A DNA stretch of 64,000 bases. It comes from Opitutia bacterium. GTDB taxonomy: Bacteria > Verrucomicrobiota > Verrucomicrobiia > Opitutales > Opitutaceae. The position numbers were made by a program, and so were the translations under genes. How positions within the stretch are numbered: position 1 is the first letter of the stretch; each line of letters begins with the position of its first letter. Below the pieces are notes generated by a model. It was not told the origin of the DNA. It saw only the letters and a program-made list of their open reading frames with translations, and did not search any database. The stretch lies in assembly GCA_016187925.1 (NCBI GenBank), contig JACPIS010000023.1, positions 171,869-235,868 on the forward strand, given 5' to 3'. Shown here one piece after another: positions 1 to 13,104 of this stretch.

Positions 1-791
1 TCGGTGATCATGCGCTCCTCGTGGCACTCGAAGCACAGCGCGTAGTTCTTGATCTCGAATGCCGCATAGAAGCTGGCCGGGTACTCCTGGTTCAGGAGGC
101 GGAAATTGTCGAAGCCATGCGGGTTGTGACAGGAGCTGCAGTCGCCGCTGGCGACGGGGCCGTGATGGCGCGGGTTGTCGGTGAGGAGCTGCTTGATGTT
201 GGTGAGCTTCCGACCGGTGTGGTCGGTGACATCGTCCTTGTCATGACAACCGAGGCACTGGTTCATGGGCAGCTGGGTCAGCAGATGCTCGACGTGGGCG
301 CCGTGGGGGTTGTGGCAGTTCAGGCATTTGGCCCCGGTCGTGACAGCGTCGTGCTTGATCTGGGAATGATTGACCTGGTCGCGGACCTTCTCGTGGCAGC
401 TCAGACAGCCGGTGCCGACCTCATCGACAAGCAGCTTAGGCAGCGTGGAGTTATGGGGGTTGTGGCAGTTGCTGCAACTCGCGGTGGCGGCAGCGTGCGT
501 GGATTTGCGGGCAAGGATGTCCTTGAAGTCATCGTGGCAGCCGAGGCAGAGGTCGTTCACGCCGCCGTTGATCGGGCCGGGATTGCGCGCATCGGCGTTC
601 TGGTGGCAGAGGGAGCAGTCGCCGCTTTCGAAAGCGGCGTGCGCTGAGGTCACCTTCAGGTCGGCGCCGACGGGCGCAACGTGCGTGACACGCGTCTTGG
701 GAACGGACGAGTCGTCGGCGCGGGCGAGGAGCGGGAACAGGGCCGCTACCAGTGCGCAGAGGCTGGATGAGAGGAAACGGGAGGCAGGCAT
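1..791 (-). CDS. Multihaem c-type cytochrome, at least 8 haems (3' end beyond window)
   Basis: Last visible gene of the minus-strand cytochrome cluster; it starts at ATG 791 and is still open at the left edge, so 263 residues are seen. A Sec signal peptide (MPASRFLSSSLCALVAALFP, then Ala-Arg-Ala) is followed by eight CXXCH haem sites: CSLCH, CLGCH, CSNCH, CLSCH, CLNCH, CLGCH, CSSCH and CFECH. Several are followed by NPH (for example CSNCHNPHN), the spacing typical of paired CXXCH (NrfB/DmsE/decahaem-like) cytochromes. It begins 13 bp after the 12-haem gene, so it is presumably co-transcribed. Inferred role: periplasmic or outer-surface electron carrier of the conduit. The exact family cannot be fixed because the C-terminus is missing. 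Confidence 0.9.
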   Translation of the reverse strand, partial: MPASRFLSSSLCALVAALFPLLARADDSSVPKTRVTHVAPVGADLKVTSAHAAFESGDCSLCHQNADARNPGPINGGVNDLCLGCHDDFKDILARKSTHAAATASCSNCHNPHNSTLPKLLVDEVGTGCLSCHEKVRDQVNHSQIKHDAVTTGAKCLNCHNPHGAHVEHLLTQLPMNQCLGCHDKDDVTDHTGRKLTNIKQLLTDNPRHHGPVASGDCSSCHNPHGFDNFRLLNQEYPASFYAAFEIKNYALCFECHEERMIT

Positions 792-804
792 GGGCGGGCA
801 GGGG

Positions 805-2472
805 TCAGTAGCTGTAGTTGGAGTGGTTCTCGCCGTGGCAGGCCAGGGTGCAATTGCCGCGGTAGGTGCCGGTGCTGTTGAATTGCAGCACGCCGTTGAG
901 CGGAGTGACGTAGCTGGTATTGAAATTGATCAGCTTAGGCTTGCCTTGGACGCCGTGCGGGTCGTGGCAGGTGGTGCAGGCGGTGCGGACCGAGACGATG
1001 TGCTTGTTGTGCTCCTTGAAGCTCTGGTTGCCCAGAATGCTGGTGCGACTGTGACATTTGTAGCAGAGCGCGTAGATGGCGGCGCTCTCGGTCTGGTTGT
1101 CCGTCAATTCCTGACGGCGTTCGAGCAGCGGGACATAAGCCGAGCCGTGCGGACCCTTTGGGCCGGAGCCGCCCGCGCCCGGCCCCTGGTTGTTGTTGTG
1201 GCAGTCTGTGCAATACATGCGGCTGGTGGTGGTCCACGGTGCGATCAGGCTCGGGACGCTGGTGTTCTTGCCCGCTGCGACGACGGAGTGGTAGGAGGCG
1301 TTGGTCGATTGGAACTCGAGGCGGGTGTTGGTCTGCACGGACTGCCGGGTCACGCGCGCCGCCCCGCGGTTGGTGCTGTCAGCGTGGCAGCGGAAGCACA
1401 GCTCGTACTGATTTGTCAGCGGATTGACGCCGGCGCCGGCGGCGTTGACACCGGCAATGCCGGCCTGATCGCCGGAGGCGGCCGGGGCGGACGCGGCCAG
1501 CGATTTCACGGCATGGGGGTTGTGGCAATCGGCGCAGGCGGCATGCCGGGTCGAATTGACGGGATCCTCGGTGGGATCATGCAGGTTGCCCGTGGTGGTG
1601 ACGGGGTGCACGCTCAGCTTGGAAAACTCGTTCTGGACGTTCTTGGCGGCGACATTGCCGTTATGGCAGGTGAAGCAGTTGTTCTCGATACCCGCCACGT
1701 TGAGGAGGCGCGGCTTGTTGCCGGCCGAGTGCGGGCGATGGCAGTTTTCGCAGCCGTTGGCCTGCACGGTGGAGTAATTTGTATGGGGCCAGGGATTGGC
1801 CCCGATCCCATTCCATGTCTTGGTGGAGGTTTTGTGGAGGGAGGCGTCCCAATAATTCTTGCTGTGGCAATTCAGGCAAAGGGCCGAGGCGGTGTTGTCA
1901 GTTACGAGAAATTTTCCAAACTGGTTGTCATGGGCATTGTGGCACGCTGTGCATTGCAGCTGACCGTTGGTATCGAGGCGCACGGCGCCAGTGAGGGTGG
2001 AGGGCGGGCGCAACTGCCCGCGGGCGGCCACCAGCGCCGCGTCGAAGGTGAAGGAAATGGGATGATCGTCCGCCAGGTCGGTGCCGACCAGAGACCGTCC
2101 GGCCGGGAGGAGATTCACGCCGCTTCGCATCTGAATCTGGGCACGGCTGCGGACCATACCCATCGCGATGGTGCCGTCGTGGCAGCTGAGGCAGAGCTTG
2201 GAATCGCCGGTCGGCTGGCCGTGGACGGCCTTGCTCGTCGTGCTCGTGTACGGCGTGTAGGTCGAGCCGGAGCTGAATCGATTCCACAGCGGAGCCTCGC
2301 GGCTGCTGTTGTGGGGAGTGTGGCAGAAGATGCAGATTTCCGACTCGGTCGCGGCCTTGATCGTGCCGGGTCCGCTGGCGGAGAGATTGTGCGCCGAGCC
2401 AACGATGCTCGCCGCGCGCAGGCAACCGGCGAGCAGTGGGAGTGCAAAGAGGAAGAGGCGCAGCGCGTTCAT
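805..2472 (-). CDS. Secreted dodecahaem c-type cytochrome
   Basis: 555 residues. Signal peptide MNALRLFLFALPLLAGCLRA, possibly a lipobox (LLAGC). Eleven CXXCH motifs can be read (CIFCH, CLSCH, CTACH, CLNCH, CENCH, CFTCH, CADCH, CFRCH, CTDCH, CYKCH, CTTCH), plus a final CTLACH near the C-terminus that has three residues between the cysteines. The first four haems form a module (CIFCHTPHN, LWNR, GTDLADDHPISF) that closely matches the whole of the 4-haem cytochrome at 7398-8015. The ATG at 2472 overlaps the stop of the upstream NHL gene in an ATGA, so the two are translationally coupled. Inferred role: terminal extracellular or barrel-inserted cytochrome of the electron conduit. The longer open frame up to 3012 is ruled out because it would run across the NHL gene. 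Confidence 0.92.
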   Translation of the reverse strand: MNALRLFLFALPLLAGCLRAASIVGSAHNLSASGPGTIKAATESEICIFCHTPHNSSREAPLWNRFSSGSTYTPYTSTTSKAVHGQPTGDSKLCLSCHDGTIAMGMVRSRAQIQMRSGVNLLPAGRSLVGTDLADDHPISFTFDAALVAARGQLRPPSTLTGAVRLDTNGQLQCTACHNAHDNQFGKFLVTDNTASALCLNCHSKNYWDASLHKTSTKTWNGIGANPWPHTNYSTVQANGCENCHRPHSAGNKPRLLNVAGIENNCFTCHNGNVAAKNVQNEFSKLSVHPVTTTGNLHDPTEDPVNSTRHAACADCHNPHAVKSLAASAPAASGDQAGIAGVNAAGAGVNPLTNQYELCFRCHADSTNRGAARVTRQSVQTNTRLEFQSTNASYHSVVAAGKNTSVPSLIAPWTTTSRMYCTDCHNNNQGPGAGGSGPKGPHGSAYVPLLERRQELTDNQTESAAIYALCYKCHSRTSILGNQSFKEHNKHIVSVRTACTTCHDPHGVQGKPKLINFNTSYVTPLNGVLQFNSTGTYRGNCTLACHGENHSNYSY

Positions 2473-3509
2473 GGTGCGGCAAGGTACTGGAAGACCTGCA
2501 GGCGGCGGTTGTAAGAATCGGCCACGTAGATCCGACCGTCGGGCGTGATGGCCAGGCCCGCAGGCAGCCAGAATTCGCCGCGTTGTGAACCCGCGGCCCC
2601 GAAATCGAGGAGGAAACGGCCGTCGTGGTCGAAAATCTGGACGTTGTCGAAGAGTGCGTCGCCGACGTAGATCCGGCCCTGCGAGTCGACCGCGATGCCC
2701 TTGGGCCGGCTGAAGTGCCCGGAGCCGTCGCCGAGACTGCCGATCGTGCGCACGTAGCCCCCGTCGCGCGTGAAGACCTGGACGCGCGAATTCATCGCAT
2801 CGGTCACGTAGATGTTCCCGCGGCCATCCGTGGAGATATGGGTGGGAAAATTGAATTTTCCCGGCTCGACGCCGCGACCGCCGAATTGCGAGAGCGCGTG
2901 GCCCTGCAGGTCGTACACTCGCACGACGTGGGTGTTCGAGCAGGCGACGTAAAGCCGGTCGCCGTCGAGCGCGAGACCGCTGGGCCGGTCGGACTCTTCG
3001 GTGATGCGCCACTGCACGCGGCCCTGTTCGTCCAGCGCCACGACCTCCTGCCGGCCGCTGTCGGCCACGTAGATCAACCCCGAGCGCTTGGCGACGGCCA
3101 CCGGCGTGTCGAACGGCACCGTGCCGGCCTTGGTCCAGCGGCGATACTGGTGGCGGGCGCGATCATAGTAGCAGACCGCGCCGGCCCCGGGATCGGTCAC
3201 GCAGAGATTGCCGGTTTCATCGACGCCGACCCCGAAGGGACGGACGAGTTGCTCCCGCCCGCGGTCGCCGCCGGTCAGGAAATTGCCGACGCGCGAGAGG
3301 AATGGCACCTGTATATCCAGATCCGCGGGATTGGCGATCTGCCCGATCCAGCGGATCCTCGGCTCGGCAGGCGGAGCGGGCCAGACCGGCGCCGGTTTGC
3401 CGGCAGGAGCGTCCGCCGTGGTGCGCGGTTCGGTCGGAACGCTGCACGCGGCCAACAGGAGCGGCAGCAGGAGGGCGGATGTGCGGCGGATGGAGAAAGG
3501 GAAATGCAT
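2469..3509 (-). CDS. NHL-repeat beta-propeller lipoprotein
   Basis: 346 residues. Lipoprotein signal ending in LLLAAC (Cys about residue 22), so it is lipidated. The rest consists of NHL repeats with the recurrent pattern PxGVxVDxxGNLYVTDxxNxRVQVF (for example GLALDGDRLYVACS, HISTDGRGNIYVTDAMNSRVQVF, GIAVDSQGRIYVGDALFDNVQIF, GLAITPDGRIYVADSYNRRLQVF), giving a six-bladed propeller. It starts 1 bp after the stop of the beta-barrel gene and overlaps the 12-haem gene by 4 bp. NHL proteins are commonly found next to multihaem cytochrome/porin genes; a scaffold or docking role is inferred. Paralogue of the lipoprotein at 6136-7257. Confidence 0.9.
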   Translation of the reverse strand: MHFPFSIRRTSALLLPLLLAACSVPTEPRTTADAPAGKPAPVWPAPPAEPRIRWIGQIANPADLDIQVPFLSRVGNFLTGGDRGREQLVRPFGVGVDETGNLCVTDPGAGAVCYYDRARHQYRRWTKAGTVPFDTPVAVAKRSGLIYVADSGRQEVVALDEQGRVQWRITEESDRPSGLALDGDRLYVACSNTHVVRVYDLQGHALSQFGGRGVEPGKFNFPTHISTDGRGNIYVTDAMNSRVQVFTRDGGYVRTIGSLGDGSGHFSRPKGIAVDSQGRIYVGDALFDNVQIFDHDGRFLLDFGAAGSQRGEFWLPAGLAITPDGRIYVADSYNRRLQVFQYLAAP

Positions 3510-3510
3510 G

Positions 3511-5499
3511 TCAGAATTTTCTATTTCCGCGGAAGAAGACGTAGTGTTTGAGGTGGCGGTCGGTGAGATAGCTTTCCTTTTCGTATTCGTATCCGAGGTC
3601 GAAATTCAGTTTGCCGTAGTCGAAATTCACGAGCGAGCGCAGGGTCGTCAGACGTTGGTCGAAATCGCGCCCGGTCTCGCGCCGGACGCCGCCCTCGAGC
3701 GTGAAGAGCAGGAACGCATAGGGGCGGGCATGCCAGCGGGCGATGGCGCTGGTGTTGTGCCGGCTCCGGCCGGTGCCCGGGAAGCTGAGCCAGTGCTGGT
3801 TGAGCTCGAGTGAGAGAAGCGTGCCGGTGCTGCCGTCATAAGTGAGGGTCTCCGACAGCCGTTGCGAGCGGAAGGGCGATAGGTTGGACTGGAAATCCTC
3901 CTGCTCGCCGCTGATCTGCAGCCAGCCCCACTTGAACTCCGCCCCGGCGGTGCGGTCGGTGATGTTCTGCAGCACCAGAAAACGGGCTCCGGTGTTGTCG
4001 ATCTGGTTTACGCGCCCGTACACGGCCAGCAGGTTGTCGAAGAGCTCCAGCCTCACCTGCAGCATGCGCGTATAGGTGGTGAAGCGACCCGCGGGCGGCG
4101 CCGCCGCCGTGTAGCTGACGAGGACCGTGCTGCCGTTCGGAATCAATCCGCCGGGCACGCGCCGGATTTCGAGGAGCGCGCCGTGGGAGACCAGCGTGTA
4201 GTCGAGGAGCTCCGCGAAAGCGCGCCCGCGCCCGTCGGTCACGCGGGTGACCCCTCGGACATCGGATTGGAGGAGGAAGACCGGGTTGCCGTCGGCCAGG
4301 ACATGCGCCTCGTCGGCGACCATGATGAGCTGTCCGGCGGACTCGCGATGCTCCTGATCGACGCGGAGATCCCCGGCCAGGCTCAGGCGTCCCCACGAGC
4401 CGAGGAGCTTGGTGTAGGATTCAGCCAGGCCGGCGCCGACGCGGTCGATCGCAAGCCGGGAGCCCGGACTGCGCAGCTCCTGCGAGAGGCCTTGGAATTG
4501 GAGGTGCGAGGTCAGGCTGGTGTAGAGTTGGTGGGTGAGGGAGAAGGTGCCTTCGTGCGCCTGCTCGTCCGTTTCGCCGGAGCGGCGATGGTTGTAGGCG
4601 TAGTGCGTGTTGCTGGTCAGGCGACGCGCATGTTCCTGGGAAAGATTTTCGTTCAGCGTGAAAAACTGGTCCGCCCGGGTCCGGTCTTCCGTGCGGGTGA
4701 ACAGCAGGGCGGATTGCAGCTCGCCCTTGCGGTTCCGGCCCCAGGAGACGTTGTCGAGGAGGGTGGCGCTGTGATTCGTGCCGGCGGTAAATACGCTCCC
4801 TTCTTCCCCGCGCTCAAAGCGGTTCAGCTCGTACGCGAGCTTGGTCTGCCCGGCATGGCCTCGCAGGTGGCTCGCGCCCAGGGAGAGAATCTCCTCCTTG
4901 TCCCGCAGGCGGTGGATCAGGCCCCCGGTGACTTCCTCCCGCGTGCGGAGGTAGCTGAGGGTGAGCGGCACCGGCCCGGCGTTGTAGCCGGTGCTGCCGC
5001 CGTAACGGTGGCTGTCGATTTGTGCGCGGTTGAAAAAATCGAAGTCGCGGAACGTGAGGTCACGATCCGCGAAGAGATGAGTGGCGTACGCCTTTGCTTT
5101 CAGCACGGAGACGTCGACGTGATAGCGCTGAAGCGGACGAGTGTTCTCCCGGTTATCGCCAGGCGGATCAAGCCGCACCCGCTGGTAGCTCAGTCCGAAT
5201 TGGGGTCGCAGAATGAACTCGAGCAGGTTGGGGTGGTAGATGGAACCGCGCAGATCGACGTTGAGGCTGGTTTCGGCAAACAAGTGATCCCGCTGGGTGA
5301 GTTCATCCCGCAGGCGGCGTTGTTCGTACTGTCCGTCCAGCTTCATCTCGAGGGCGATTTCATGGACCTTTATGCGGAAACGTCGGAAATCATCGTCGGG
5401 TATTTCGCCCTGGGCGCGCGCGGGGCCTGCGCCGGCCGAAAAAAAAACCACCAAGGCGGCGAGGCCCGGAAGCACGGCGTTGGCGGGCCGGGTGCTCAT
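3511..5499 (-). CDS. Outer-membrane beta-barrel protein, probable porin of a porin-cytochrome conduit
   Basis: 662 residues with a cleavable signal peptide (LVVFFSAGAGPARAQ). The body has alternating polar/hydrophobic strands with many Tyr, Arg and aromatic residues (for example LEFILRPQFGLSYQRVRL, GYEYEKESYLTDRHLKHYVFF) and ends in Phe, the usual C-terminal residue recognised by the BAM machinery. No haem motif, plug or TonB box was seen, which argues against a TonB receptor. It lies between two cytochrome/NHL gene pairs and overlaps the 5-haem lipoprotein gene by 4 bp (ATGA). By analogy with known porin-cytochrome complexes (Geobacter-type and MtrB-type barrels of comparable or larger size) it would sheath a cytochrome through the outer membrane. 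That function is inferred from context and fold, not from a recognised family signature. Confidence 0.82.
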   Translation of the reverse strand: MSTRPANAVLPGLAALVVFFSAGAGPARAQGEIPDDDFRRFRIKVHEIALEMKLDGQYEQRRLRDELTQRDHLFAETSLNVDLRGSIYHPNLLEFILRPQFGLSYQRVRLDPPGDNRENTRPLQRYHVDVSVLKAKAYATHLFADRDLTFRDFDFFNRAQIDSHRYGGSTGYNAGPVPLTLSYLRTREEVTGGLIHRLRDKEEILSLGASHLRGHAGQTKLAYELNRFERGEEGSVFTAGTNHSATLLDNVSWGRNRKGELQSALLFTRTEDRTRADQFFTLNENLSQEHARRLTSNTHYAYNHRRSGETDEQAHEGTFSLTHQLYTSLTSHLQFQGLSQELRSPGSRLAIDRVGAGLAESYTKLLGSWGRLSLAGDLRVDQEHRESAGQLIMVADEAHVLADGNPVFLLQSDVRGVTRVTDGRGRAFAELLDYTLVSHGALLEIRRVPGGLIPNGSTVLVSYTAAAPPAGRFTTYTRMLQVRLELFDNLLAVYGRVNQIDNTGARFLVLQNITDRTAGAEFKWGWLQISGEQEDFQSNLSPFRSQRLSETLTYDGSTGTLLSLELNQHWLSFPGTGRSRHNTSAIARWHARPYAFLLFTLEGGVRRETGRDFDQRLTTLRSLVNFDYGKLNFDLGYEYEKESYLTDRHLKHYVFFRGNRKF

Positions 5500-6122
5500 G
5501 GGCGGTCGGCCGGTTGCAAGCCGGCGGCAGCTTGCCAGCCCTCCCGGAGATAGTACCGGCGTTCGCTGCCGTGAGGATTGTGGCAGACATGGCAGGCCAT
5601 CTGGCCGATGCGCTCGTGTTCTACGGTTTGCGCCAGGTCCTTGTCATCATGGCATTCGAGGCAGAGCTGCCGGCCGGACTGGATCAGCAGCGCCTTTTCC
5701 TGCGACTGGTGCGGATTGTGGCAGCCGAGGCAGTGCCCGGACTCGGCGGGCGCGTGTCGGTGGGTGGCCTTGGCGAACACGTTTTTGTGGCAGATCTGGC
5801 AGAGATCGATCACTTCACTGACCAGTTTCTGAGAGAAGACCGATTCGTGACAGGAACTGCATTCGTGGTTGGCGTAGGGCCGGTGCACCACGAGGGCGGG
5901 GCCGCTCCGGTCGGAAGACGGTCCTGGTGCCGGCGCGGATACCGCTCCCGGCGGGATTGCCCCCGGTGTCGCACTCGCGACGGAAGCCGGGGCAGGCTCC
6001 GGCGGCACGCCGTCGAAGAATATCCGCTGCCACTTCCGTCCGGCCGGCGAGTTGCACGCGCCCACCAGCAGGGCCGTCAGGCACCCGGCGAGGATGATGA
6101 GCTGTTTTCTGGTGCCGGACAT
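5496..6122 (-). CDS. Pentahaem c-type cytochrome lipoprotein
   Basis: 208 residues from ATG 6122 (a TTG at 6152 is possible but would overlap the upstream gene). Lipobox LLVGAC gives a lipidated Cys about residue 23, followed by a Pro/Ala-rich linker and five haem sites: CSSCH, CQICH, CLGCH, CLECH, CHVCH, three of them followed by NPH or similar. Likely the periplasmic-face cytochrome that feeds electrons into the barrel encoded directly downstream (ATGA overlap at 5496-5499). Its last residues, AGLQPADRP, come from a palindrome (minus strand 5525-5508) that differs by one base from a palindrome inside smc, suggesting that the C-terminus was extended or replaced by a repeat. Confidence 0.92.
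   Translation of the reverse strand: MSGTRKQLIILAGCLTALLVGACNSPAGRKWQRIFFDGVPPEPAPASVASATPGAIPPGAVSAPAPGPSSDRSGPALVVHRPYANHECSSCHESVFSQKLVSEVIDLCQICHKNVFAKATHRHAPAESGHCLGCHNPHQSQEKALLIQSGRQLCLECHDDKDLAQTVEHERIGQMACHVCHNPHGSERRYYLREGWQAAAGLQPADRP
5508..5525 (-). repeat. Palindromic repeat at the 3' end of the 5-haem cytochrome gene
   Basis: On the minus strand GCCGGC, then TTGCA, then ACCGGCC. The 18-base unit matches 17 of 18 bases with the palindrome at 43637-43654 in smc and is read in the same frame (AGLQPA) in both genes. Whether it is a mobile REP-like unit or chance in high-GC DNA cannot be settled from two copies. Confidence 0.45.
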
Positions 6123-6135
6123 GGTGGCTGCTGCT

Positions 6136-7257
6136 TCAATTGCCGTGCCCAAAACCGAAGACGCTCACCTTGCGGTCGCCGAATTGATTGGTGACGAGCA
6201 CCAGGTATTCCAAGTGGAAGCCCGGCGCGGCATAGGATTGGAAAAGCTCCACGTGCTCGTAGTCAATGATGACCTTGGCGGGCAGGTCCAGTCCCGGCAT
6301 GTTCTCCAGCATCTCACCGAAGAAGGGCAGCAGCCTTCCTTCCGGATCGAAGATCTGCACCACCTGAGTGCCGGCGTCGACAACGTAGACCCGGCCCTCG
6401 CGGTCCACGGCCACACCCTTGGGGCGGGCGAACTCGCCGGGTTTGTCGCCGGCGCCCAGCCCGAACGTGCGCAGGTAGCGTCCGTCGCTGTCGTATTGCT
6501 GCACGCGGAACGCACCGAGGTCGGACACATACAAGCGGCCCTGCGTGTCGAGGGCGAGGTTGACGGGGGAGAAGAGACGGCTGGCCGCGTCGGCCGTGTC
6601 GGGATTGCGGGGGATGGTGTGAAGCAACTCGCGCTTGGTCTTGTCGTAGACGTGCACCGACCGGCTCTTGAGATCGGCGACAAAGAGCCGGTTGCCCGCG
6701 ACGAGCACATCACTCGGTTTCAGCGCGTCGGCCGATGCGGCCGAGCCGGATTCGCTTTTGACGGTTTTGGCACCGATGGCGCCGAGGTAACGGTCATCCG
6801 CACTGTAGATGAGCACCTGACCGCGGACCGGATCAGTGACGTAGCGCGTGCCGTCCTGGTCGATGGAAATGTTGATGGGTGTGACGATCTTGCCCTCGCC
6901 GGCCGGGGTGAAATAGCGGAAGGTGCGCTGCTTCAGGTCGAGAATATCGATGGAGCCGGAGCCAAGATCGCAGACGTAGAGCTGGTTGCCACGCAACGCC
7001 ATGCCGTAGGGTTTACCGATTGGCTTTTTCGCGACCTGCTTGCCCACGACATAAGCCTCGAATTTGCTGACCTCACGTCCCAAGTCTTGCTCGCCGGAAA
7101 AACTGGTGAGGTATTGCAAGCGGGGCGGCTGGGGAGCCTGCGGGTAAAAGACCGCGCTCTTTTGGGTTTCGGTCGGAGCTGTCGCGCAGCCGGCCACGAG
7201 GAGGAGCAACGAGCCGGTTAGTATACTGCGCAAAGGAACGGTGGGGAATGGTTTCAT
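6136..7257 (-). CDS. NHL-repeat beta-propeller lipoprotein
   Basis: 373 residues. Lipoprotein signal LLLLVAGC (Cys about residue 24). NHL-type repeats follow: GMALRGNQLYVCDLGSGSIDILDL, NISIDQDGTRYVTDPVRGQVLIY, VLVAGNRLFVADLKSRSVHVYD, NLALDTQGRLYVSDLGAFRVQQYD, GVAVDREGRVYVVDAGTQVVQIFD. It ends 13 bp before the 5-haem lipoprotein gene and is the first gene after the terminator at 7289-7321. Presumed outer-membrane-anchored propeller of the electron-transfer complex; the exact partner is unknown. It shares architecture but only modest sequence with the 2469-3509 protein. Confidence 0.9.
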   Translation of the reverse strand: MKPFPTVPLRSILTGSLLLLVAGCATAPTETQKSAVFYPQAPQPPRLQYLTSFSGEQDLGREVSKFEAYVVGKQVAKKPIGKPYGMALRGNQLYVCDLGSGSIDILDLKQRTFRYFTPAGEGKIVTPINISIDQDGTRYVTDPVRGQVLIYSADDRYLGAIGAKTVKSESGSAASADALKPSDVLVAGNRLFVADLKSRSVHVYDKTKRELLHTIPRNPDTADAASRLFSPVNLALDTQGRLYVSDLGAFRVQQYDSDGRYLRTFGLGAGDKPGEFARPKGVAVDREGRVYVVDAGTQVVQIFDPEGRLLPFFGEMLENMPGLDLPAKVIIDYEHVELFQSYAAPGFHLEYLVLVTNQFGDRKVSVFGFGHGN

Positions 7258-7288
7258 GGCGTGGAAGAGGATGGATTGGCTTTGGGTG

Positions 7289-7321
7289 AAAAAAGGCGCC
7301 GCGGCTACAGGCCGCGGCGCC
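7289..7321 (-). terminator. Strong intrinsic terminator between the 4-haem cytochrome and the conduit genes
   Basis: Perfect 11-bp stem GGCGCCGCGGC / GCCGCGGCGCC with a 5-base loop (7306-7310), followed on the minus strand by six T. It sits 76 bp after the stop of the 4-haem gene and 31 bp before the next start, so it should make the 4-haem gene more abundant than the downstream genes (partial read-through) or end its transcript. Confidence 0.88.
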
Positions 7322-7397
7322 GGGAATAAACCCGCGTGAGTAATGCCGCCTCGGAGACTGATCCCAACAACCGTTCCGGGCGGTACGCGCCGCTGGG

Positions 7398-8015
7398 TTA
7401 TTTGTTATGACAGGTGAGGCAAAGGGCGCTGCCGGAGTTGCTCTTCCGGAGGAAGGGGGCGTTGATGTTGTTGTGCACATCGTGGCAGGATGCGCATTCC
7501 ATCTTGCCCGCGAACAGTGGGACGGCATGGCCGGCGTCGACGAAGCTGGCGCTGGCCGGAGTCACCAGACTGCCGTCGGCCGTGGCCAGTGCGGTGTCGT
7601 AGGTGAACGAGACCGGGTGATCGTCGCTCAGGTCGGTGCCGACTTTCGCGCTGCCTGTCATGAGGTGCGTGCCGGTGTTGTTGCCGAAGGAGTCCATCGC
7701 CACCGTGCCGTCGTGACAACTGAGGCAAGCCTTGGAAATGCCGGCAGGTTGGCCCATGGTGGCGTTCAAGGTGCTGCTTGAGTAAAGTGTGAACGTCGCA
7801 ACCGTTGCCGCACGGTTCCATAGCGGAACGGTCTGGCCGGTCTTGGCATTGTGCGGGGTGTGACAGAAAACGCATTTTTCCGTCGAACCCCATGCGTTGC
7901 CTGACAAATCATGCGCTGTGCCTGATATCGCGCTCCAGCCGGTCGCGGGAGCGAGTGCGGCGCAAAGGAGTAGTGCAGCCGCTCCGAGTTTTGTGAGTTT
8001 ATGGGTGATGTTCAT
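7398..8015 (-). CDS. Secreted tetrahaem c-type cytochrome
   Basis: 205 residues with a Sec signal peptide (LGAAALLLCAALAPATGWSA) and four haem sites: CVFCH, CLSCH, CASCH, CLTCH; it ends shortly after the last haem (CHNK). The motifs CVFCHTPHN, LWNRA, CLSCHDGTVAMD and GTDLSDDHPVSFTYD are repeated in the first 200 residues of the 12-haem cytochrome at 805-2472, so the two are paralogous. RBS AGAGG lies just ahead of ATG 8015. First gene of the cluster, placed before a strong terminator, so probably the most highly expressed; a soluble periplasmic shuttle is the likely role (inference). Confidence 0.92.
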   Translation of the reverse strand: MNITHKLTKLGAAALLLCAALAPATGWSAISGTAHDLSGNAWGSTEKCVFCHTPHNAKTGQTVPLWNRAATVATFTLYSSSTLNATMGQPAGISKACLSCHDGTVAMDSFGNNTGTHLMTGSAKVGTDLSDDHPVSFTYDTALATADGSLVTPASASFVDAGHAVPLFAGKMECASCHDVHNNINAPFLRKSNSGSALCLTCHNK

Positions 8016-8276: not shown

Positions 8277-8984
8277 ATGCATCTCACGCCCTTGGGAGAC
8301 TCGGCCTTGATCGTCCACGTAGGCGACCGCATTGACGAGGCGACGCATGCCCGGGTGCAGGCGGTGATGGAGAAACTCGAAAGGGAACCCTTGCCGGCAG
8401 TGACCGAACTTGTGCCGGCCTACACGACCGTGACGCTCTTCTACAACGTGCCGGTTGCCGTGGCGGCGGGAGCGCCGGCAGATGGCGTTGTGGGCTGGCT
8501 GGGAGACAGGGTCGCCGCGCGGCTGGCGGAGGTGCCCGCCGACGTGAAACCCCGCCGCGGCCGGGTGGTGGAGGTGCCGGTCTGCTACGATACGGAGTTT
8601 GCTCCCGATCTGGCGGAGATCGCGCAGCGGACCGGGCTCGCGCCCGAGAAGGTCGTCGAACTGCACCAGCAGGCCGACTATCTGGTCTATCTCGTCGGTT
8701 TTGCGCCGGGCTTCCCGTACATGGGTGGTTTGCCGGCCGAACTGGCCGTGATGCCGCGCCGCGCGACGCCCCGCACGAAAGTCGCGCCGGGCTCGGTGGG
8801 CATCGTCGGTGCGCAGTGCTGCATTTACCCGCTGCCGACGCCGGGTGGCTGGAATCTGCTCGGGCGCACGCCGCGTCGGCTCTTCGACCCGCAGGATGAT
8901 CCGCCGGCGGTGCTGCGCGCCGGCGACCGCGTGAAGTTCCGCGCCATCACGCGCGAGGAGTTCGAGCACTGGAGGGAGAAATGA
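8277..8984 (+). CDS. pxpB: 5-oxoprolinase subunit PxpB (KipI family)
   Basis: 235 residues. The KipI/PxpB family acts with PxpC and PxpA in ATP-dependent opening of 5-oxoproline (pyroglutamate) to glutamate. Family motifs: GDSALIVHVGD at the start, LVGFAPGFPYMGGLP (about 140-155), VAPGSVGIVGAQCCIYPLPTPGGWNLLGRTP, and the end FRAITREEFEHW. First gene of the operon; it overlaps pxpC by ATGA at 8981-8984, preceded by a good RBS (GGAGGGAG). In Bacilli relatives inhibit the KinA kinase, but the pxpB-pxpC-pxpA order here supports the metabolic role. Confidence 0.95.
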   Translation: MHLTPLGDSALIVHVGDRIDEATHARVQAVMEKLEREPLPAVTELVPAYTTVTLFYNVPVAVAAGAPADGVVGWLGDRVAARLAEVPADVKPRRGRVVEVPVCYDTEFAPDLAEIAQRTGLAPEKVVELHQQADYLVYLVGFAPGFPYMGGLPAELAVMPRRATPRTKVAPGSVGIVGAQCCIYPLPTPGGWNLLGRTPRRLFDPQDDPPAVLRAGDRVKFRAITREEFEHWREK

Positions 8985-9973
8985 GCCTGACCGTGCTCAA
9001 GCCCGGATTGCTCACGACGGTGCAGGACCAGGGCCGGCCCGGCTGGCAGCGCCATGGCGTGGTGGTCGGCGGGGCGGTGGACGCCTTTGCCGCCCGCGTG
9101 GCGAACGTTGTGGTCGGCAACGCGGAGAGCGCCGCGGTGCTCGAGATGGCGCTGCTCGGCCCGGAACTGCGGGTCGGGCAGGACATGCTCGTCGCGCTGT
9201 GCGGCGCGGGATTCGAGCTCATGATCGGCGGCCGGGCCGCGCCCCATGACCGTCCGGTGCTCGTGGCGGCGGGGGAAACGATGGCCTTTGCCCCGACGGA
9301 TCGCGGCGCGCGCGCCTGGCTCGCCGTGGCCGGCGGCATCGACGTGCCGCTCGTGCTCGGCAGCCGGAGCACCTACGTGCGCGGCCGCTTGGGCGGATTC
9401 GAAGGACGGCCGTTGATCGCCGGTGACAAGGTTTCCGTCGGGCCGCCTCCGGAGTGGGCGAAAGGCCTGGCCGGCCAGATGAAGGCGCGGGGGCGGACGA
9501 CCGTGCCGTGGAGCGTGCGACCGGAGACGCTCGGACGCTCCGTCGGCGGGGCGACGGTGCGCGCCATCCGCGGTCCGGAGTGGAGCCTGTTCACCGAGTT
9601 GTCGCACCGGGAGTTTTTCGGCACGGATTACGCGGTGACGAAGGACGTCGACCGCATGGGCATGCGGTTGGAGGGCGTGCCGCTGGCGCTGCGGGAGCCG
9701 CGGGAGGAGATATCCTCGGCGGTCAACGTGGGCGTGGTGCAGGTGCCGCACTCCGGGCAGCCCATCGTGCTGCTGGTCGGACGCCAGACGGTGGGCGGTT
9801 ATCCGCGCATCGCCGCGGTGGCGACGGTCGACCTGGGCAAGCTCGCCCAGTTCAAGCCCGGCGACCCCATCCGCTTTCAGGAAATCACGGTCGAGCAGGC
9901 GCACGAACTGCAGCTGGGGCGCGAACGTGATTTTGCGCGTGTCATTTCGGGGCTGAGCCGCTTGGTTGCGTAG
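8981..9973 (+). CDS. pxpC: 5-oxoprolinase subunit PxpC (KipA family)
   Basis: 330 residues, normal for the family. Biotin-dependent-carboxylase-like (KipA) fold; motifs LLTTVQDQGRPGWQRHGV, GGAVDAFAARVANVVVGN, AWLAVAGGIDVPLVLGSRSTY and GGYPRIAAVATVDLGKLAQ are typical. Partner of PxpB and PxpA in cytosolic 5-oxoprolinase. It ends 2 bp before the pxpA start. Confidence 0.95.
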   Translation: MSLTVLKPGLLTTVQDQGRPGWQRHGVVVGGAVDAFAARVANVVVGNAESAAVLEMALLGPELRVGQDMLVALCGAGFELMIGGRAAPHDRPVLVAAGETMAFAPTDRGARAWLAVAGGIDVPLVLGSRSTYVRGRLGGFEGRPLIAGDKVSVGPPPEWAKGLAGQMKARGRTTVPWSVRPETLGRSVGGATVRAIRGPEWSLFTELSHREFFGTDYAVTKDVDRMGMRLEGVPLALREPREEISSAVNVGVVQVPHSGQPIVLLVGRQTVGGYPRIAAVATVDLGKLAQFKPGDPIRFQEITVEQAHELQLGRERDFARVISGLSRLVA

Positions 9974-9975
9974 GC

Positions 9976-10722
9976 ATGGCGCACCTCGACCTGAATTGTG
10001 ACCTCGGCGAAGGAGCCGGCCACGATGCAGAACTGATGCCGCTGATCACGTCCGCCAACATCGCGTGCGGCGTCCACGCGGGCGACGAGGCCACGATGCG
10101 CGCGACCATCGCACTCGCGAAAAAACACGGGGTCGCCCTCGGCGCGCACCCCAGCCTCGACGACCGCGAGAACTTCGGCCGGCGCGAGATGGTCGTGATG
10201 CCCGAGGAGGTTTTCCATCTGGTGCTGGCGCAGACGCGCACCCTGCAGCGCCTCGCGGACGAAGCCGGTGCGCGAGTCACGCACCTGAAGCCGCATGGGG
10301 CGCTCTACAACATGGCGGCGCGCAACACGCTGCTGGCCGAGGCCGTGGCCCACGCGGCTTACGAGGCGGACCCGCGGCTCGTGGTCTTCGGTCTCGCCGG
10401 CAGCCACCTGCTCACGGCCGCGCACGCCGGCGGACTGGCGGCCGCCAGCGAGGTGTTCACCGACCGGACTTATCAGCCGGACGGCTCGCTGACGCCGCGT
10501 GGCCGGCCGGACGCACTGATCACGGATGAGGAGGCGGCCGTGGCGCAGGTACTGCGCATGGTGCGCGAGGGCCGGGTGCGCACGACCGACGGCACGGACA
10601 GGGCCATCGCGGCTGACACGGTCTGCCTGCACGGCGACGGCGCGCACGCGGTGGCGTTTGCCCGGCGGCTGCGCGCGGAACTCGCCCGGGCGGGCGTGGA
10701 GATCAAATCCTTCGCCGCATGA
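9976..10722 (+). CDS. pxpA: 5-oxoprolinase subunit PxpA (LamB/YcsF family)
   Basis: 248 residues. Family signature at the N-terminus (LDLNCDLGEGAGHDAELMPLI, then SANIACGVHAGD), VKPHGALYN-type motif (LKPHGALYNMAARN) and AASEVFTDRTYQPDGSLTPR. The catalytic subunit of bacterial 5-oxoprolinase, a distorted TIM-barrel metal enzyme in this family. The stop overlaps the next start as ATGA at 10719-10722. Confidence 0.95.
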   Translation: MAHLDLNCDLGEGAGHDAELMPLITSANIACGVHAGDEATMRATIALAKKHGVALGAHPSLDDRENFGRREMVVMPEEVFHLVLAQTRTLQRLADEAGARVTHLKPHGALYNMAARNTLLAEAVAHAAYEADPRLVVFGLAGSHLLTAAHAGGLAAASEVFTDRTYQPDGSLTPRGRPDALITDEEAAVAQVLRMVREGRVRTTDGTDRAIAADTVCLHGDGAHAVAFARRLRAELARAGVEIKSFAA

Positions 10723-11459
10723 TCAAGCTCATCGGCATCCTCGTTGTGGCGATCGGCTTCGCGCTGCGGTTCAACACGCTGCTGGTCGTGATGGCGGCGG
10801 GGATCATCACGGGCTTGGTGGCGGGGATGTCGTTCCACGAGATATTGGAGCTGTTTGGGAAGTATTTCGTCGAAAACCGCTACATGACGCTGCCCATCGT
10901 GCTGATGGTGCCCCTCATCGGGTTGCTGGAGCGTTACGGTTTGCAGGAGCGCGCGGAGACGCTGATTCGCCGCGCTGCATCGGCGACAGCCGGCCGGGTC
11001 ATCATGATCTATACGCTGGTGCGGCAGATCTCGATCGCGCTCGGAGTGCGGGTCGGCGGGCACGCCGAGGCGGTACGGCCGTTGATCGTGCCCATGGCCG
11101 AGGCCGCCGCCAAACTGCAGTTGGAGCGGGCGGCAGAGCGGTCGGGAGGCCAGGCCGTAACCGCTCCAGAGCTCCCCGACAAGACGACCCAAGCCATCCG
11201 CGCCAACGCGGCGGCGGCGGAAAACGTCGGCAATTTCTTCGGGGAGGACGTGTTCATTGCCGTCGGTGCGATCTTGCTGATGAAAGGTTTTTTCGAGGCG
11301 CAGGGCATGATTGTCAGCGTATGGGCGATGGCGCTGTGGGGCATCCCGACGGCGCTGGTCGCCTCGCTGGTGATGTGGTGGCGCACGCGGGTGCTCGACA
11401 AGCGCATCGCGCGGGACGTCGCCGAAGCAGTCAAAGCGAGGGAGAGGAGTGTGCCATGA
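10719..11459 (+). CDS. DUF969 membrane protein, probable 5-oxoproline permease subunit
   Basis: 246 residues with about six hydrophobic segments (for example IKLIGILVVAIGFALRFNTLLVVMAAGIITG and VFIAVGAILLMKG). DUF969 and DUF979 proteins always come as a pair and are commonly found beside pxpBCA or pcp; a joint transporter for 5-oxoproline or its peptides is inferred from that context. It overlaps both neighbours by ATGA. Confidence 0.85.
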   Translation: MIKLIGILVVAIGFALRFNTLLVVMAAGIITGLVAGMSFHEILELFGKYFVENRYMTLPIVLMVPLIGLLERYGLQERAETLIRRAASATAGRVIMIYTLVRQISIALGVRVGGHAEAVRPLIVPMAEAAAKLQLERAAERSGGQAVTAPELPDKTTQAIRANAAAAENVGNFFGEDVFIAVGAILLMKGFFEAQGMIVSVWAMALWGIPTALVASLVMWWRTRVLDKRIARDVAEAVKARERSVP

Positions 11460-12427
11460 ATCCGACACCGCTTATCACCGTCGAAGCGTTCTATTCGATC
11501 ATCGGTCTTGTCTTTGCGTTCATCGCCGTGCGGCTCGTGCGCGATCGCACGCACGGCAAGCGCTGGGGTTCCGCACTGTTCTGGGGGCTGCTGGCGGTGA
11601 CTTATCTTTTCGGCAAGGTGCTGCCGCCGCTCGTGGTCGGCTATCTCGTGTTGGCGATGGTTGCGCTCGCCGCCGCCCGGCAGGTGGCCCGCTCCGAGGA
11701 GCGCGGCCCGACGCGGGCGGAGCGGCTGGCCTCGGCGGAGCGCCTGCGGAACAAATTGTTCTGGCCGGCGCTGCTTGTGCCGGCGGTCGCCGTCGTCGGC
11801 ACGCTGTTGCTCGACCGGGTGCATGCCGGGCGTTTCTGGCTGATCGAGCCGAAGCAGGTGACACTGATCTCGCTCGGATTGGGCGCTCTGATCGCGATCG
11901 GCGTCGCGATGCGCACAACCGGCGCGAGGGTGACCGTACCGGTGCAGGAGGGCGGCCGGCTCCTGCAGGCGATCGGCTGGGCGTTGATCCTGCCCCAGAT
12001 GCTCGCGGCGCTGGGTGGGATTTTTGCGAAGGCGGGGGTGGGGCCGGTGGTCGCCGACCTGGTCGCGCAGGCGCTGCCGACACAGTTTCCCTTTGTGGCG
12101 GTGGCTGCCTATTGTCTCGGCATGGCGGTCTTCACGATGTGCATGGGCAATGCCTTTGCGGCTTTTGCGGTCATCACCGGCGGCATCGGTCTGCCGCTGA
12201 TCGTCCAGCAGCATCACGGCAACGTGGCGATCATGGCCGGCATCGGCATGCTCGCGGGCTACTGCGGCACGCTCATGACGCCGATGGCGGCGAACTTCAA
12301 CATTGTGCCCGCCATGCTCCTCGACCTACGCGACAAGAACGCCGTCGTGAAGGCACAGGTGCCCATCGGCCTCACCATTCTTGCCGCGAACATCCTCATC
12401 ATGTATTTCGCCGTCTACCGGTTTTGA
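11456..12427 (+). CDS. DUF979 membrane protein, probable 5-oxoproline permease subunit
   Basis: 323 residues from the ATG at 11456 that overlaps the DUF969 stop; RBS GGAGAGGAG just upstream. About nine hydrophobic segments and the conserved stretch FTMCMGNAFAAFAVITGGIGLP, followed by GYCGTLMTPMAANFNIVPAMLLDLRDKN. Partner of the DUF969 protein. Together they likely import the substrate for PxpABC; no direct evidence of substrate in the sequence. Confidence 0.87.
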   Translation: MNPTPLITVEAFYSIIGLVFAFIAVRLVRDRTHGKRWGSALFWGLLAVTYLFGKVLPPLVVGYLVLAMVALAAARQVARSEERGPTRAERLASAERLRNKLFWPALLVPAVAVVGTLLLDRVHAGRFWLIEPKQVTLISLGLGALIAIGVAMRTTGARVTVPVQEGGRLLQAIGWALILPQMLAALGGIFAKAGVGPVVADLVAQALPTQFPFVAVAAYCLGMAVFTMCMGNAFAAFAVITGGIGLPLIVQQHHGNVAIMAGIGMLAGYCGTLMTPMAANFNIVPAMLLDLRDKNAVVKAQVPIGLTILAANILIMYFAVYRF

Positions 12428-12465
12428 CACCGGTCCCCGGCCTCCGGCTCCCCGCTTTACCCCGC

Positions 12466-13104
12466 ATGAAAAACATCCTGCTCACCGGCTTCGAACCGTT
12501 CGGCGGCGACGCCCTCAACCCCTCCGAGGAAATCGCCCGTCAGTTGAATGGCATCACCATCGCGCGGCACCGGGTCGAGGGCGCGTTGCTGCCGTGCGTG
12601 TTTGGCGCGGCGATCAAGGAGCTGAAGCATCAGATCAAATTGCACGAACCGGCGCTCGTCATCTGCCTCGGCCTGGCGGGCGGCCGGGCCGAGATCACGC
12701 CCGAGCGTGTGGCCATCAATGTCGACGACGCCCGCATCGCCGACAACGCGGGCCAGCAGCCGATCGACCGGCCCGTCGTCAAGGACGGCCCCGCCGCCTA
12801 CTTCAGCACGCTGCCGATCAAGGCCATCGTGCAGGAGCTGCGGGCGAAGGAGATTCCGGCGGCGGTCTCGCAGACCGCGGGCACGTTCGTCTGCAATCAT
12901 GTCTTCTACGGATTGATGCACGAGCTGGCGTTGCACCAGAAACGCGTGCGCGGCGGTTTCATTCATGTGCCGTATCTGCCCGAGCAGACCGCCGATAAAC
13001 CGAGCCTGCCCTACGACAAGATGATCGAGGGCATCACACTCGCGATCGAGACGGCCGTCGAATATCGCCGCGACGTGAAAGCCGCCGGCGGGCAAAGCAG
13101 CTGA
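12466..13104 (+). CDS. pcp: Pyrrolidone-carboxylate (pyroglutamyl) peptidase I
   Basis: 212 residues, the usual size. Cysteine peptidase (C15) that removes N-terminal pyroglutamate from peptides; the catalytic triad can be placed at E80 (EITPE), C143 (AGTFVCNHVFYG) and H167 (GGFIHVPYLPEQ). N-terminal LLTGFEPFGGDALNPS is the family signature. Lies 38 bp after the permease pair, so the operon covers release (Pcp), uptake (DUF969/979) and ring opening (PxpABC). It converges on the PEP-CTERM gene with only 13 bp between stops and no clear terminator. Confidence 0.96.
   Translation: MKNILLTGFEPFGGDALNPSEEIARQLNGITIARHRVEGALLPCVFGAAIKELKHQIKLHEPALVICLGLAGGRAEITPERVAINVDDARIADNAGQQPIDRPVVKDGPAAYFSTLPIKAIVQELRAKEIPAAVSQTAGTFVCNHVFYGLMHELALHQKRVRGGFIHVPYLPEQTADKPSLPYDKMIEGITLAIETAVEYRRDVKAAGGQSS

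Follow-up and report, generated by a model that had tools for sequence, protein, structure and literature searches.

An OmcE-type cytochrome gene beside a predicted outer-membrane electron conduit in an Opitutia bacterium

How electrons travel between the inside of the cell and cytochrome filaments on its outside has been described as not well understood (PMC10553843; this and all other papers are cited for the parts of their text that were available). The subunit of the OmcE filament carries four haems, one of which is ligated by a histidine of the adjacent subunit (PMC9473688, PMC12954529). Among the described gene clusters, the undecahaem electron transfer (Uet) system of Ca. Tenderia and Gallionella comprises the tetrahaem protein UetA, the barrel UetC, the NHL proteins UetHI and the 11/12-haem doubled-CXXCH protein UetJ, together with the trihaem proteins UetDEG and the peptidyl-prolyl isomerase (PPIase) UetB (PMC10734462); locus tags for trihaem, TPR and undecahaem proteins are given in PMC5371394. 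The Ext conduits of Geobacter sulfurreducens (extABCD, extEFG) combine a barrel, a pentahaem lipoprotein and a 12-haem cytochrome in one cluster (PMC6148476). In verrucomicrobial clusters described by He et al. 2017, a porin is paired with an 8-haem periplasmic cytochrome, and the text available states that Geobacter-type outer-surface cytochromes, OmcE and OmcS being named, are absent from those metagenome-assembled genomes (MAGs) (PMC5615132).

Here we analyze a seven-gene operon at the left end of a 64,000-nucleotide stretch of an Opitutia bacterium genome (GCA_016187925.1, contig JACPIS010000023.1, positions 171,869 to 235,868; hereafter the window). The operon very probably encodes an extracellular electron conduit, and on balance we read it as encoding an OmcE-type filament plus the outer-membrane conduit that would feed it, with a 12-haem protein as the link. 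The proposal of a porin-cytochrome conduit, made in a preliminary description of this DNA, is now well supported by the barrel model, by the conservation of the operon, and by genes just outside the window for cytochrome c maturation and for cytochrome complexes linked to quinones. That description had missed two points, namely that the tetrahaem protein is a relative of the OmcE nanowire and that the 12-haem protein has an OmcE-like domain.

The operon and its OmcE-type tetrahaem protein

All seven cytochrome, barrel and NHL genes lie on the minus strand of window positions 1-8015, and are transcribed in the order tetrahaem, NHL1, pentahaem, barrel, NHL2, 12-haem and 10-haem (aa, amino acids):

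7398..8015, minus strand: OmcE-type tetrahaem cytochrome, predicted filament subunit; 205 aa, 4 CXXCH, signal peptide without lipobox (by eye)
7295..7321, minus strand: terminator-like hairpin between the tetrahaem gene and NHL1; 11 G-C pairs followed by T6, dG -27.4 (scripted estimate)
6136..7257, minus strand: NHL beta-propeller lipoprotein 1 (NHL1); 373 aa, lipobox LVAGC, PF01436 E 1.2e-14
5496..6122, minus strand: pentahaem c-type cytochrome lipoprotein; 208 aa, 5 CXXCH, lipobox LVGAC, PF09699 E 1.3e-24
3511..5499, minus strand: outer-membrane beta-barrel; 662 aa, C-terminal Phe
2469..3509, minus strand: NHL beta-propeller lipoprotein 2 (NHL2); 346 aa, lipobox LLAAC, PF01436 E 5.6e-35
805..2472, minus strand: 12-haem cytochrome, predicted filament-to-conduit joint; 555 aa, 11 CXXCH and 1 CX3CH
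1861..2394, minus strand: OmcE-like N-terminal domain of the 12-haem protein; residues 27-204, haems 1-4
808..1860, minus strand: eight-haem C-terminal half of the 12-haem protein; seven CXXCH and the CX3CH, distal His conserved
1..791, minus strand: 10-haem c-type cytochrome, cut by the left window edge; 8 CXXCH within the window, PF09699 E 4e-42 (window part)

The inventory of the preliminary description, with four multihaem cytochromes (4, 5, 12 and at least 8 haems), a barrel ending in Phe, two NHL lipoproteins and a lipidated 5-haem protein, was recovered in full. Leftward extension in the same contig completed the last cytochrome as a 10-haem protein of 358 aa (9 CXXCH and one CX3CH) that ends near -285; where the window edge meets the leftward sequence, there are 12 consecutive N. 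The genes had also been called co-directional with 4-bp overlaps. The common direction holds; such overlaps occur at two junctions only (pentahaem/barrel and NHL2/12-haem), the others being gaps of 1 bp (barrel/NHL2), 13 bp (NHL1/pentahaem and also 12-haem/10-haem) and 140 bp (tetrahaem/NHL1, with the hairpin inside). The Pfam matches to the doubled-CXXCH (PF09699, E 1e-12 to 4e-42) and NHL (E 1e-14 and 6e-35) families are far above chance; the score of the pentahaem protein was obtained with a mechanically assigned TTG start at 6152, which is too long, and the ATG at 6122 is preferred. No further open reading frame (ORF) of at least 60 aa with two or more CXXCH was found anywhere in the window.

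To collect relatives of the operon, eight 12-haem proteins were aligned and the alignment was used to scan genome contigs from 84,980 species. This yielded at least 558 12-haem relatives among at least 586 pattern matches, of which the best 80, with 44-64% identity, were kept. Modules in these loci were labelled by a scan of all ORFs (E 1e-6) with hidden Markov models (HMMs) built from verrucomicrobial members and first-round matches.

As judged from its sequence, the tetrahaem protein is a full-length OmcE homologue with a conserved set of haem ligands. It matched OmcE (7tfs) with a phmmer E of 1.6e-37 over residues 9-205 (BLAST identity 43%), and, at E 4.9e-28 over nearly its full length, 9yuq, a 16-chain entry described as a 'putative multiheme cytochrome c'; these two were the sole phmmer matches among all PDB chains up to E 10. 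The four proximal and four distal histidines are all present. In a set of 62 OmcE-type proteins, consisting of 59 from named loci, 7tfs, 9yuq and the window protein, just four histidines outside the CXXCH motifs are conserved (H35, H55, H133 and H181 of the tetrahaem protein), each in 59-62 of the 62.

The hairpin behind the tetrahaem gene has counterparts in relatives. Across neighbour pairs, the median gap between the OmcE gene and NHL1 is 120.5 bp (40 pairs), and from NHL1 onward the medians are 21, -4, 2 and -4 bp (37, 43, 41 and 51 pairs, respectively). In OmcE-NHL1 gaps of at least 35 bp, a terminator-like hairpin with dG <= -14 was present in 15 of 36 relatives compared to 5 of 180 dinucleotide shuffles; at the looser cut-off of dG <= -8, the numbers were 17 of 36 and 28 of 180. 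A GC-rich terminator-like hairpin 3' of the OmcE gene is consistent with an over-produced subunit, as partial termination after the first gene would leave the filament subunit in excess.

These data bear on whether the OmcE homologue of the operon polymerises into filaments, which we consider likely. An alternative, which we hold to be improbable and yet the most probable of the rival explanations, is that the operon encodes a porin-cytochrome conduit alone; the OmcE homologue would then be a monomeric reductase or carrier, soluble or at the surface, and the 12-haem protein would have its OmcE-like domain simply as an ancestral cytochrome module. Homology is indeed no proof of polymerisation, and the distal histidines would persist for ordinary bis-His ligation as well. 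However, a strong terminator-like hairpin divides the OmcE gene from the conduit genes, as expected for an over-produced subunit, and the closest solved relative, 7tfs, was solved as a filament, which is what its entry title describes.

The 12-haem protein and the outer-membrane barrel

Sequence and model agree in presenting the 12-haem protein as an OmcE-like fold fused to an eight-haem half. Its first 205 residues matched 7tfs with a phmmer E of 2.2e-32. In a Foldseek search of the whole AlphaFold2 model (70 sequences; predicted local distance difference test, pLDDT, 87.9) against the PDB up to E 10, 7tfs was the single match (E 2e-9), so that this search with the whole model as query returned no solved fold for the eight-haem half. 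VIA-align superimposed residues 27-204 on 7tfs with Z 13.7 and a root-mean-square deviation (rmsd) of 2.8 Å over 175 aligned residues; the next VIA row was OmcS (Z 4.3), and rows reaching into the eight-haem half had Z <= 3.5 (whole-protein model). Both the 12-haem and the 10-haem protein exceed the Pfam cut-off of the general MtrC/MtrF domain, and all matches of the operon cytochromes to the decahaem and MtrC/MtrF-domain models of NCBIfam are under the curated cut-offs. A reading of the 12-haem protein as a lipoprotein (LLAGC) was dropped, the cysteine at that site being absent in seven aligned relatives, one of which has a cysteine elsewhere in its signal region.

The four distal histidines are retained in 68-70 of the 70 N-terminal domains of 12-haem proteins. 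Because only these four are conserved, the swapped inter-subunit ligand, whichever histidine it is, must be among those kept by nearly all of these domains. Over the entire 12-haem protein, 12 proximal and 16 other (non-CXXCH) histidines are conserved at 90% or more, which would suffice for its own 12 haems and one donated ligand; this is compatible with a joint and no proof of it. In a tree of 132 sequences based on the trimmed alignment (FastTree, unrooted), an exact split with an SH-like support of 0.988 separates all 70 N-terminal domains from the 62 OmcE-type proteins, and the OmcE-like domain thus looks like an old, separately conserved module and not like a recent copy. That the 12-haem protein links the filament to the conduit is a serious candidate role, to which we give slightly less than even chances.

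Less probable than the conduit-only reading is that the 12-haem protein, instead of being the joint, forms a homopolymer of its own or acts as a terminal reductase at the surface. The ligands kept by its OmcE-like domain would suit this role, and OmcX homologues with 11 or 12 motifs have been proposed as filament formers in syntrophic sulfate-reducing bacteria (PMC10553843, PMC5539420), OmcX and the 12-haem protein being compared here by motif number. Against this, the 12-haem gene, which has an overlap with NHL2, belongs to the closely packed conduit genes beyond the hairpin; this suggests a lower copy number than that of OmcE.

Two kinds of additional cytochrome genes were seen near 12-haem genes of other loci. 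In L102, a 9-haem gene follows the 12-haem gene. A longer possible paralogue, which has 18-24 haem motifs and also matches the 12-haem model, is additionally encoded in the proteobacterial loci L112 (16171-18528) and L090 (11896-14337) and in L106, and adjoins an NHL gene in L090 and L106.

The barrel gene product is confidently modelled as a large beta-barrel (AlphaFold2 from 54 sequences, pLDDT 91.4), with about 28-30 long strands according to a manual count from DSSP. Its top VIA row was MtrB (6r2q_B; Z 22.2, 438 aligned residues, rmsd 8.8), and Foldseek returned many outer-membrane barrels, with MtrB fifth by E-value. By sequence, it gave no Pfam or NCBIfam match at E 0.01 and no PDB match at E 10. 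The comparison with MtrB-type families that had been put forward as a check on the barrel was therefore negative at E 0.01; we take these families to be TIGR03509 and, presumably by this number, PF11854, the MtrB/PioB porins.

A cytochrome labelled as pentahaem type directly precedes the barrel gene in 50 neighbour pairs among the 80 loci. The number of CXXCH motifs in these 50 barrel-adjacent cytochromes is 5 in 31 and ranges from 3 to 21 in the rest, and it is odd in 44. The highest counts (15-21) belong to verrucomicrobial records. Seven proteobacterial loci chosen for the absence of the pentahaem label (L063, L069, L081, L090, L102, L105 and L112) have no multihaem ORF of at least 50 aa from NHL1 to the barrel, and retain OmcE (partial in L090, where a contig end cuts it), NHL1, the barrel, NHL2 and the 12-haem protein. 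The least probable of the rival explanations, in which the barrel and the NHL propellers would mainly form an usher-like platform for filament export or assembly while electrons cross through another porin-cytochrome cluster of the genome, can draw on these seven loci, on usher structures among the Foldseek matches of the barrel and on two further porin-multihaem cytochrome (MHC) clusters that the genome seems to have, but it is countered by the 50 pairs with a pentahaem-type gene directly 5' of the barrel and by a top VIA row that is MtrB and no usher.

Conservation across phyla and the proposed electron route

The larger groups among the best 80 relatives are Verrucomicrobia/Kiritimatiellae-type (17), Planctomycetes-type (15), proteobacterial (12), Bacteroidetes-type (11), Nitrospirae (6) and deltaproteobacterial-type (4). 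Nitrospinota, KSB1, Ignavibacteria, Calditrichota, Hydrogenedentes, BRC1, Zixibacteria, Myxococcales and Neomarinimicrobiota are represented once each, and six relatives carry no group name. The nearest named 12-haem relatives in this set come from verrucomicrobial MAGs.

Labels were assigned in the 80 loci to OmcE (61), NHL1 (62), the pentahaem type (53), the barrel (70) and NHL2 (70); in the 46 loci of at least 15 kb, the corresponding numbers are 43, 43, 37, 44 and 40. OmcE, barrel and 12-haem protein occur jointly in 42 of these 46 loci, and all five core genes in 37. The barrel match is absent from 10 of the 80, eight of which are shorter than 15 kb. An earlier, GC3-weighted gene caller had missed genes in AT-rich loci and given lower counts (a same-strand upstream barrel in 41 of 54 loci; five core genes in 23 of 46 large loci), which the rescan of all ORFs superseded. 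With first-round labels, the commonest order, OmcE-NHL1-pentahaem-barrel-NHL2-12-haem, was found in 19 of the 54 loci with 6 kb upstream, and in 8 of these 54 the 12-haem gene had no labelled upstream neighbours, in part through AT-rich genes that the first caller missed. The 4-bp start/stop overlap recurs in 44 of 69 NHL2/12-haem neighbour pairs. Among named carriers, Desulforhopalus sp. IMCC35007 (L111) has the genes from OmcE to the 12-haem protein on a single strand; the locus of Planctomycetales bacterium ZRK34 (L108) has the 12-haem protein, the barrel and NHL2 and carries no OmcE label. The modules co-occur across phyla, and a terminator-like hairpin sets the filament gene apart from the tightly spaced conduit genes.

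As a control, the models were run on 56 ORFs taken elsewhere in this genome, and none of these matched NHL1, NHL2, the barrel or the 12-haem protein at E 1e-5. One of them, an unrelated 8-haem cytochrome, did match the OmcE model and those of the pentahaem and 10-haem proteins (E 6e-7 to 4e-6), so the cytochrome labels alone are not specific.

Within larger groups the operon is patchy. In the phylum of the window, the barrel was found in 6 of 387 sampled genomes and the 12-haem protein in the same 6 (the genome of the window counted); in its family, the OmcE type was found in 7 of 150, two of them weak (E ~2e-4). The phylum of a Desulforhopalus locus has the 12-haem protein in 22 of 198 genomes at E <= 1e-30, some matches covering the profile partly, and a gammaproteobacterial class in 19 of 369 at E <= 1e-60, of which 9 reach the profile end as a single piece of at least 500 positions. 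This distribution suggests horizontal spread. A protein of ~243-257 aa with an 'ETMN' motif, mostly followed by YTYV, recurs next to or close to the operon, in four loci from the phylum of the window and in one gammaproteobacterial locus. The copy in L050, the only one scanned, gave no Pfam match. The five copies are:

L050:2156-2905: ETMN-motif protein
L025:5702-6433: ETMN-motif protein
L051:4330-5103: ETMN-motif protein
L054:14585-15352: ETMN-motif protein
L105:3994-4767: ETMN-motif protein

Complexes of the NapC, b561 and NrfD types are common inner-membrane entry points to extracellular electron transfer, and candidates for all three are encoded nearby. Leftward, the 10-haem gene is followed by a gene for a TPR protein, beyond which genes for cytochrome c assembly, of the ResB and CcsA types, lie on the same strand. 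Within ~17 kb further left follow a protein in which 11 haem motifs are joined to a membrane domain of the cytochrome b561 type (L021:11038-13206), which we take to be reminiscent of Geobacter CbcL, an NrfD/FeS/tetrahaem set and a NapC-type 6-haem protein.

On the reading of a filament with its own conduit, quinol electrons from these inner-membrane complexes would pass to periplasmic cytochromes (the 10-haem protein and others), and the barrel would be threaded by the pentahaem lipoprotein, by the eight-haem half of the 12-haem protein or by both. The OmcE-like domain of the 12-haem protein would lie outside the cell as a first 'subunit', on which OmcE subunits may stack by their usual inter-subunit His ligation, and the two NHL lipoproteins could be structural or assembly factors at the outer membrane. 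The electron acceptor might be a mineral, humics or another cell. We infer filament formation, topology, electron direction, acceptor and joint alike. A bolder version, which is conceivable and which we regard as rather unlikely, is a nanowire covalently rooted in its conduit, with the eight-haem half as a transmembrane wire in the barrel and the OmcE-like domain as an outside 'subunit zero' that would seed OmcE polymerisation by donating or accepting the inter-subunit histidine. The proteobacterial loci without a pentahaem gene would fit such a rooted nanowire, which, if real, would be an old, cross-phylum solution to attaching and charging cytochrome filaments.

Several observations weigh against a filament fed by its own conduit. 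The in vivo role of cytochrome filaments as conduits is itself disputed (PMC11077965). Unrelated TonB-type siderophore receptors match the barrel nearly as well as MtrB does (Z 20.8 vs 22.2), and the top rank of MtrB is therefore no proof of a relation to Mtr. The pentahaem label is absent from 12 of the 58 loci with OmcE, barrel and 12-haem labels, among them most of the proteobacterial loci inspected, so a conduit role of the pentahaem protein would not be universal. Retention of the distal histidines is equally expected from fold homology alone, and on the untrimmed alignment the split between N-terminal domains and OmcE-type proteins has an SH-like support of only 0.677 (FastTree, midpoint-rooted). 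The terminator-like hairpin is present in under half of the relatives. OmcE is not always first in the operon, since several Bacteroidota-type, KSB1, Calditrichota and Ignavibacteria loci have the order NHL2-12-haem-OmcE-NHL1-pentahaem-barrel. Finally, the 80 loci are the best matches of the 12-haem protein and thus a biased sample of at least 558.

The fusion of a filament-subunit fold to an eight-haem module, recurring with a barrel and an OmcE gene across many phyla, makes the connection between filament and cell directly testable. In addition, the 12-haem protein, which is far better conserved than the barrel, may serve as a marker by which carriers could be found in phyla that are not generally considered electroactive.

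Further genes of interest were observed in the surroundings. The contig of the window (C38) carries a second porin-multihaem cluster at ~151.5-154.7 kb, with a cytochrome of at least 6 CXXCH (L021:2-589 and leftward) and a 700-aa probable barrel without NCBIfam match (L021:615-2717). On another contig, C40, an 8-haem probable lipoprotein is followed by a 708-aa barrel at ~83.1-86.0 kb (L023:5107-8004); this barrel matches TIGR03509 (MtrB/PioB) weakly and under the curated cut-off (E 9.5e-7). A [NiFe] hydrogenase cluster with maturation genes lies ~20-30 kb left of the window (L022:840-9499; translations read by eye). The translations of L024:4095-8999 (read by eye) include an 8-haem cytochrome and, close to it, a multicopper/nitrite-reductase-like protein that has a cytochrome c domain as a fusion partner. 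On the plus strand of the window, the genes at 8277-13104 form an apparent 5-oxoproline/pyroglutamate utilisation cluster, presumably consisting of pxpB, pxpC, pxpA, two membrane proteins and a pyroglutamyl peptidase.

Comparison with known systems

The preliminary description had matched the gene set to none of the named Mtr, Pcc/Omb and Ext systems. This was partly right; several parts do match Uet, and the composition resembles Ext. With MtrCAB and MtoAB, the operon shares a large barrel and multihaem cytochromes, MtrB being the top VIA row of the barrel, but the window barrel has no MtrB/PioB profile match. The verrucomicrobial porin-MHC clusters likewise place a porin beside a multihaem cytochrome, probably in the same phylum. 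An assignment of the window cluster to this type of He 2017 was dropped for its different composition; of the two other porin-MHC clusters that the genome seems to carry, on C40 and C38, the one on C40 looks like that type. The likeness to the Ext clusters is one of composition only (barrel, pentahaem lipoprotein and 12-haem protein), and the available text on these names no NHL or tetrahaem protein in them (PMC6148476), whereas the window operon has both.

By description, two further loci are similar. A Geoalkalibacter ferrihydriticus locus combines an OmcE homologue with two NHL proteins, as does the window operon, and is without mtoB according to the part of the authors' account available (PMC12016550); in Desulfovibrio ferrophilus, NHL-cytochrome clusters place NHL proteins beside outer-membrane cytochromes (PMC9769857), an arrangement also seen here. 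The OmcE nanowire of G. sulfurreducens (7TFS) shares full-length homology, four haems and the same set of distal histidines with the tetrahaem protein. In contrast to it, the gene of the window protein has a conduit operon of its own next to it, and the 12-haem partner contains a second OmcE fold as a fused domain. In the titles and abstract beginnings searched, which covered few subscription papers, we found no description of an OmcE-like domain inside an 11/12-haem conduit protein; the review PMC12575090 may link UetA and OmcE. The operon is built from parts of known kinds, with Uet as a published near-neighbour, and the candidate OmcE-fold joint and the wide conservation are the part that we did not find in the literature searched.

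The likeness to Uet, which is one of composition, extends to counterparts of the tetrahaem protein, the barrel, the two NHL proteins and the 12-haem protein. The window operon differs in having a pentahaem lipoprotein in place of the trihaem proteins and NHL1 between the tetrahaem and the pentahaem/barrel genes. No ORF of at least 60 aa with exactly three CXXCH was found in the window or in the 30 kb to its left, and PPIase matches (PF00639, PF13145) are absent from the whole window contig, those of the genome lying on contigs C19 and C12. Locus L175, from the gammaproteobacterial class, encodes a PPIase (translation by eye), a 600-aa probable barrel, proteins with 3, 4 and 3 CXXCH, an NHL protein, and a protein with 11 CXXCH that the 12-haem HMM recognises at E 5e-82; the probable barrel of this locus gave no match to the barrel HMM, and a tetrahaem gene, should the locus have one, would lie beyond the stretch examined. 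L174 is intermediate, with two trihaem genes between NHL1 and the barrel. Because L175 holds most of the Uet parts, we take Uet to be a divergent relative and the window operon a variant without trihaem proteins and PPIase; Uet is the closest named system.

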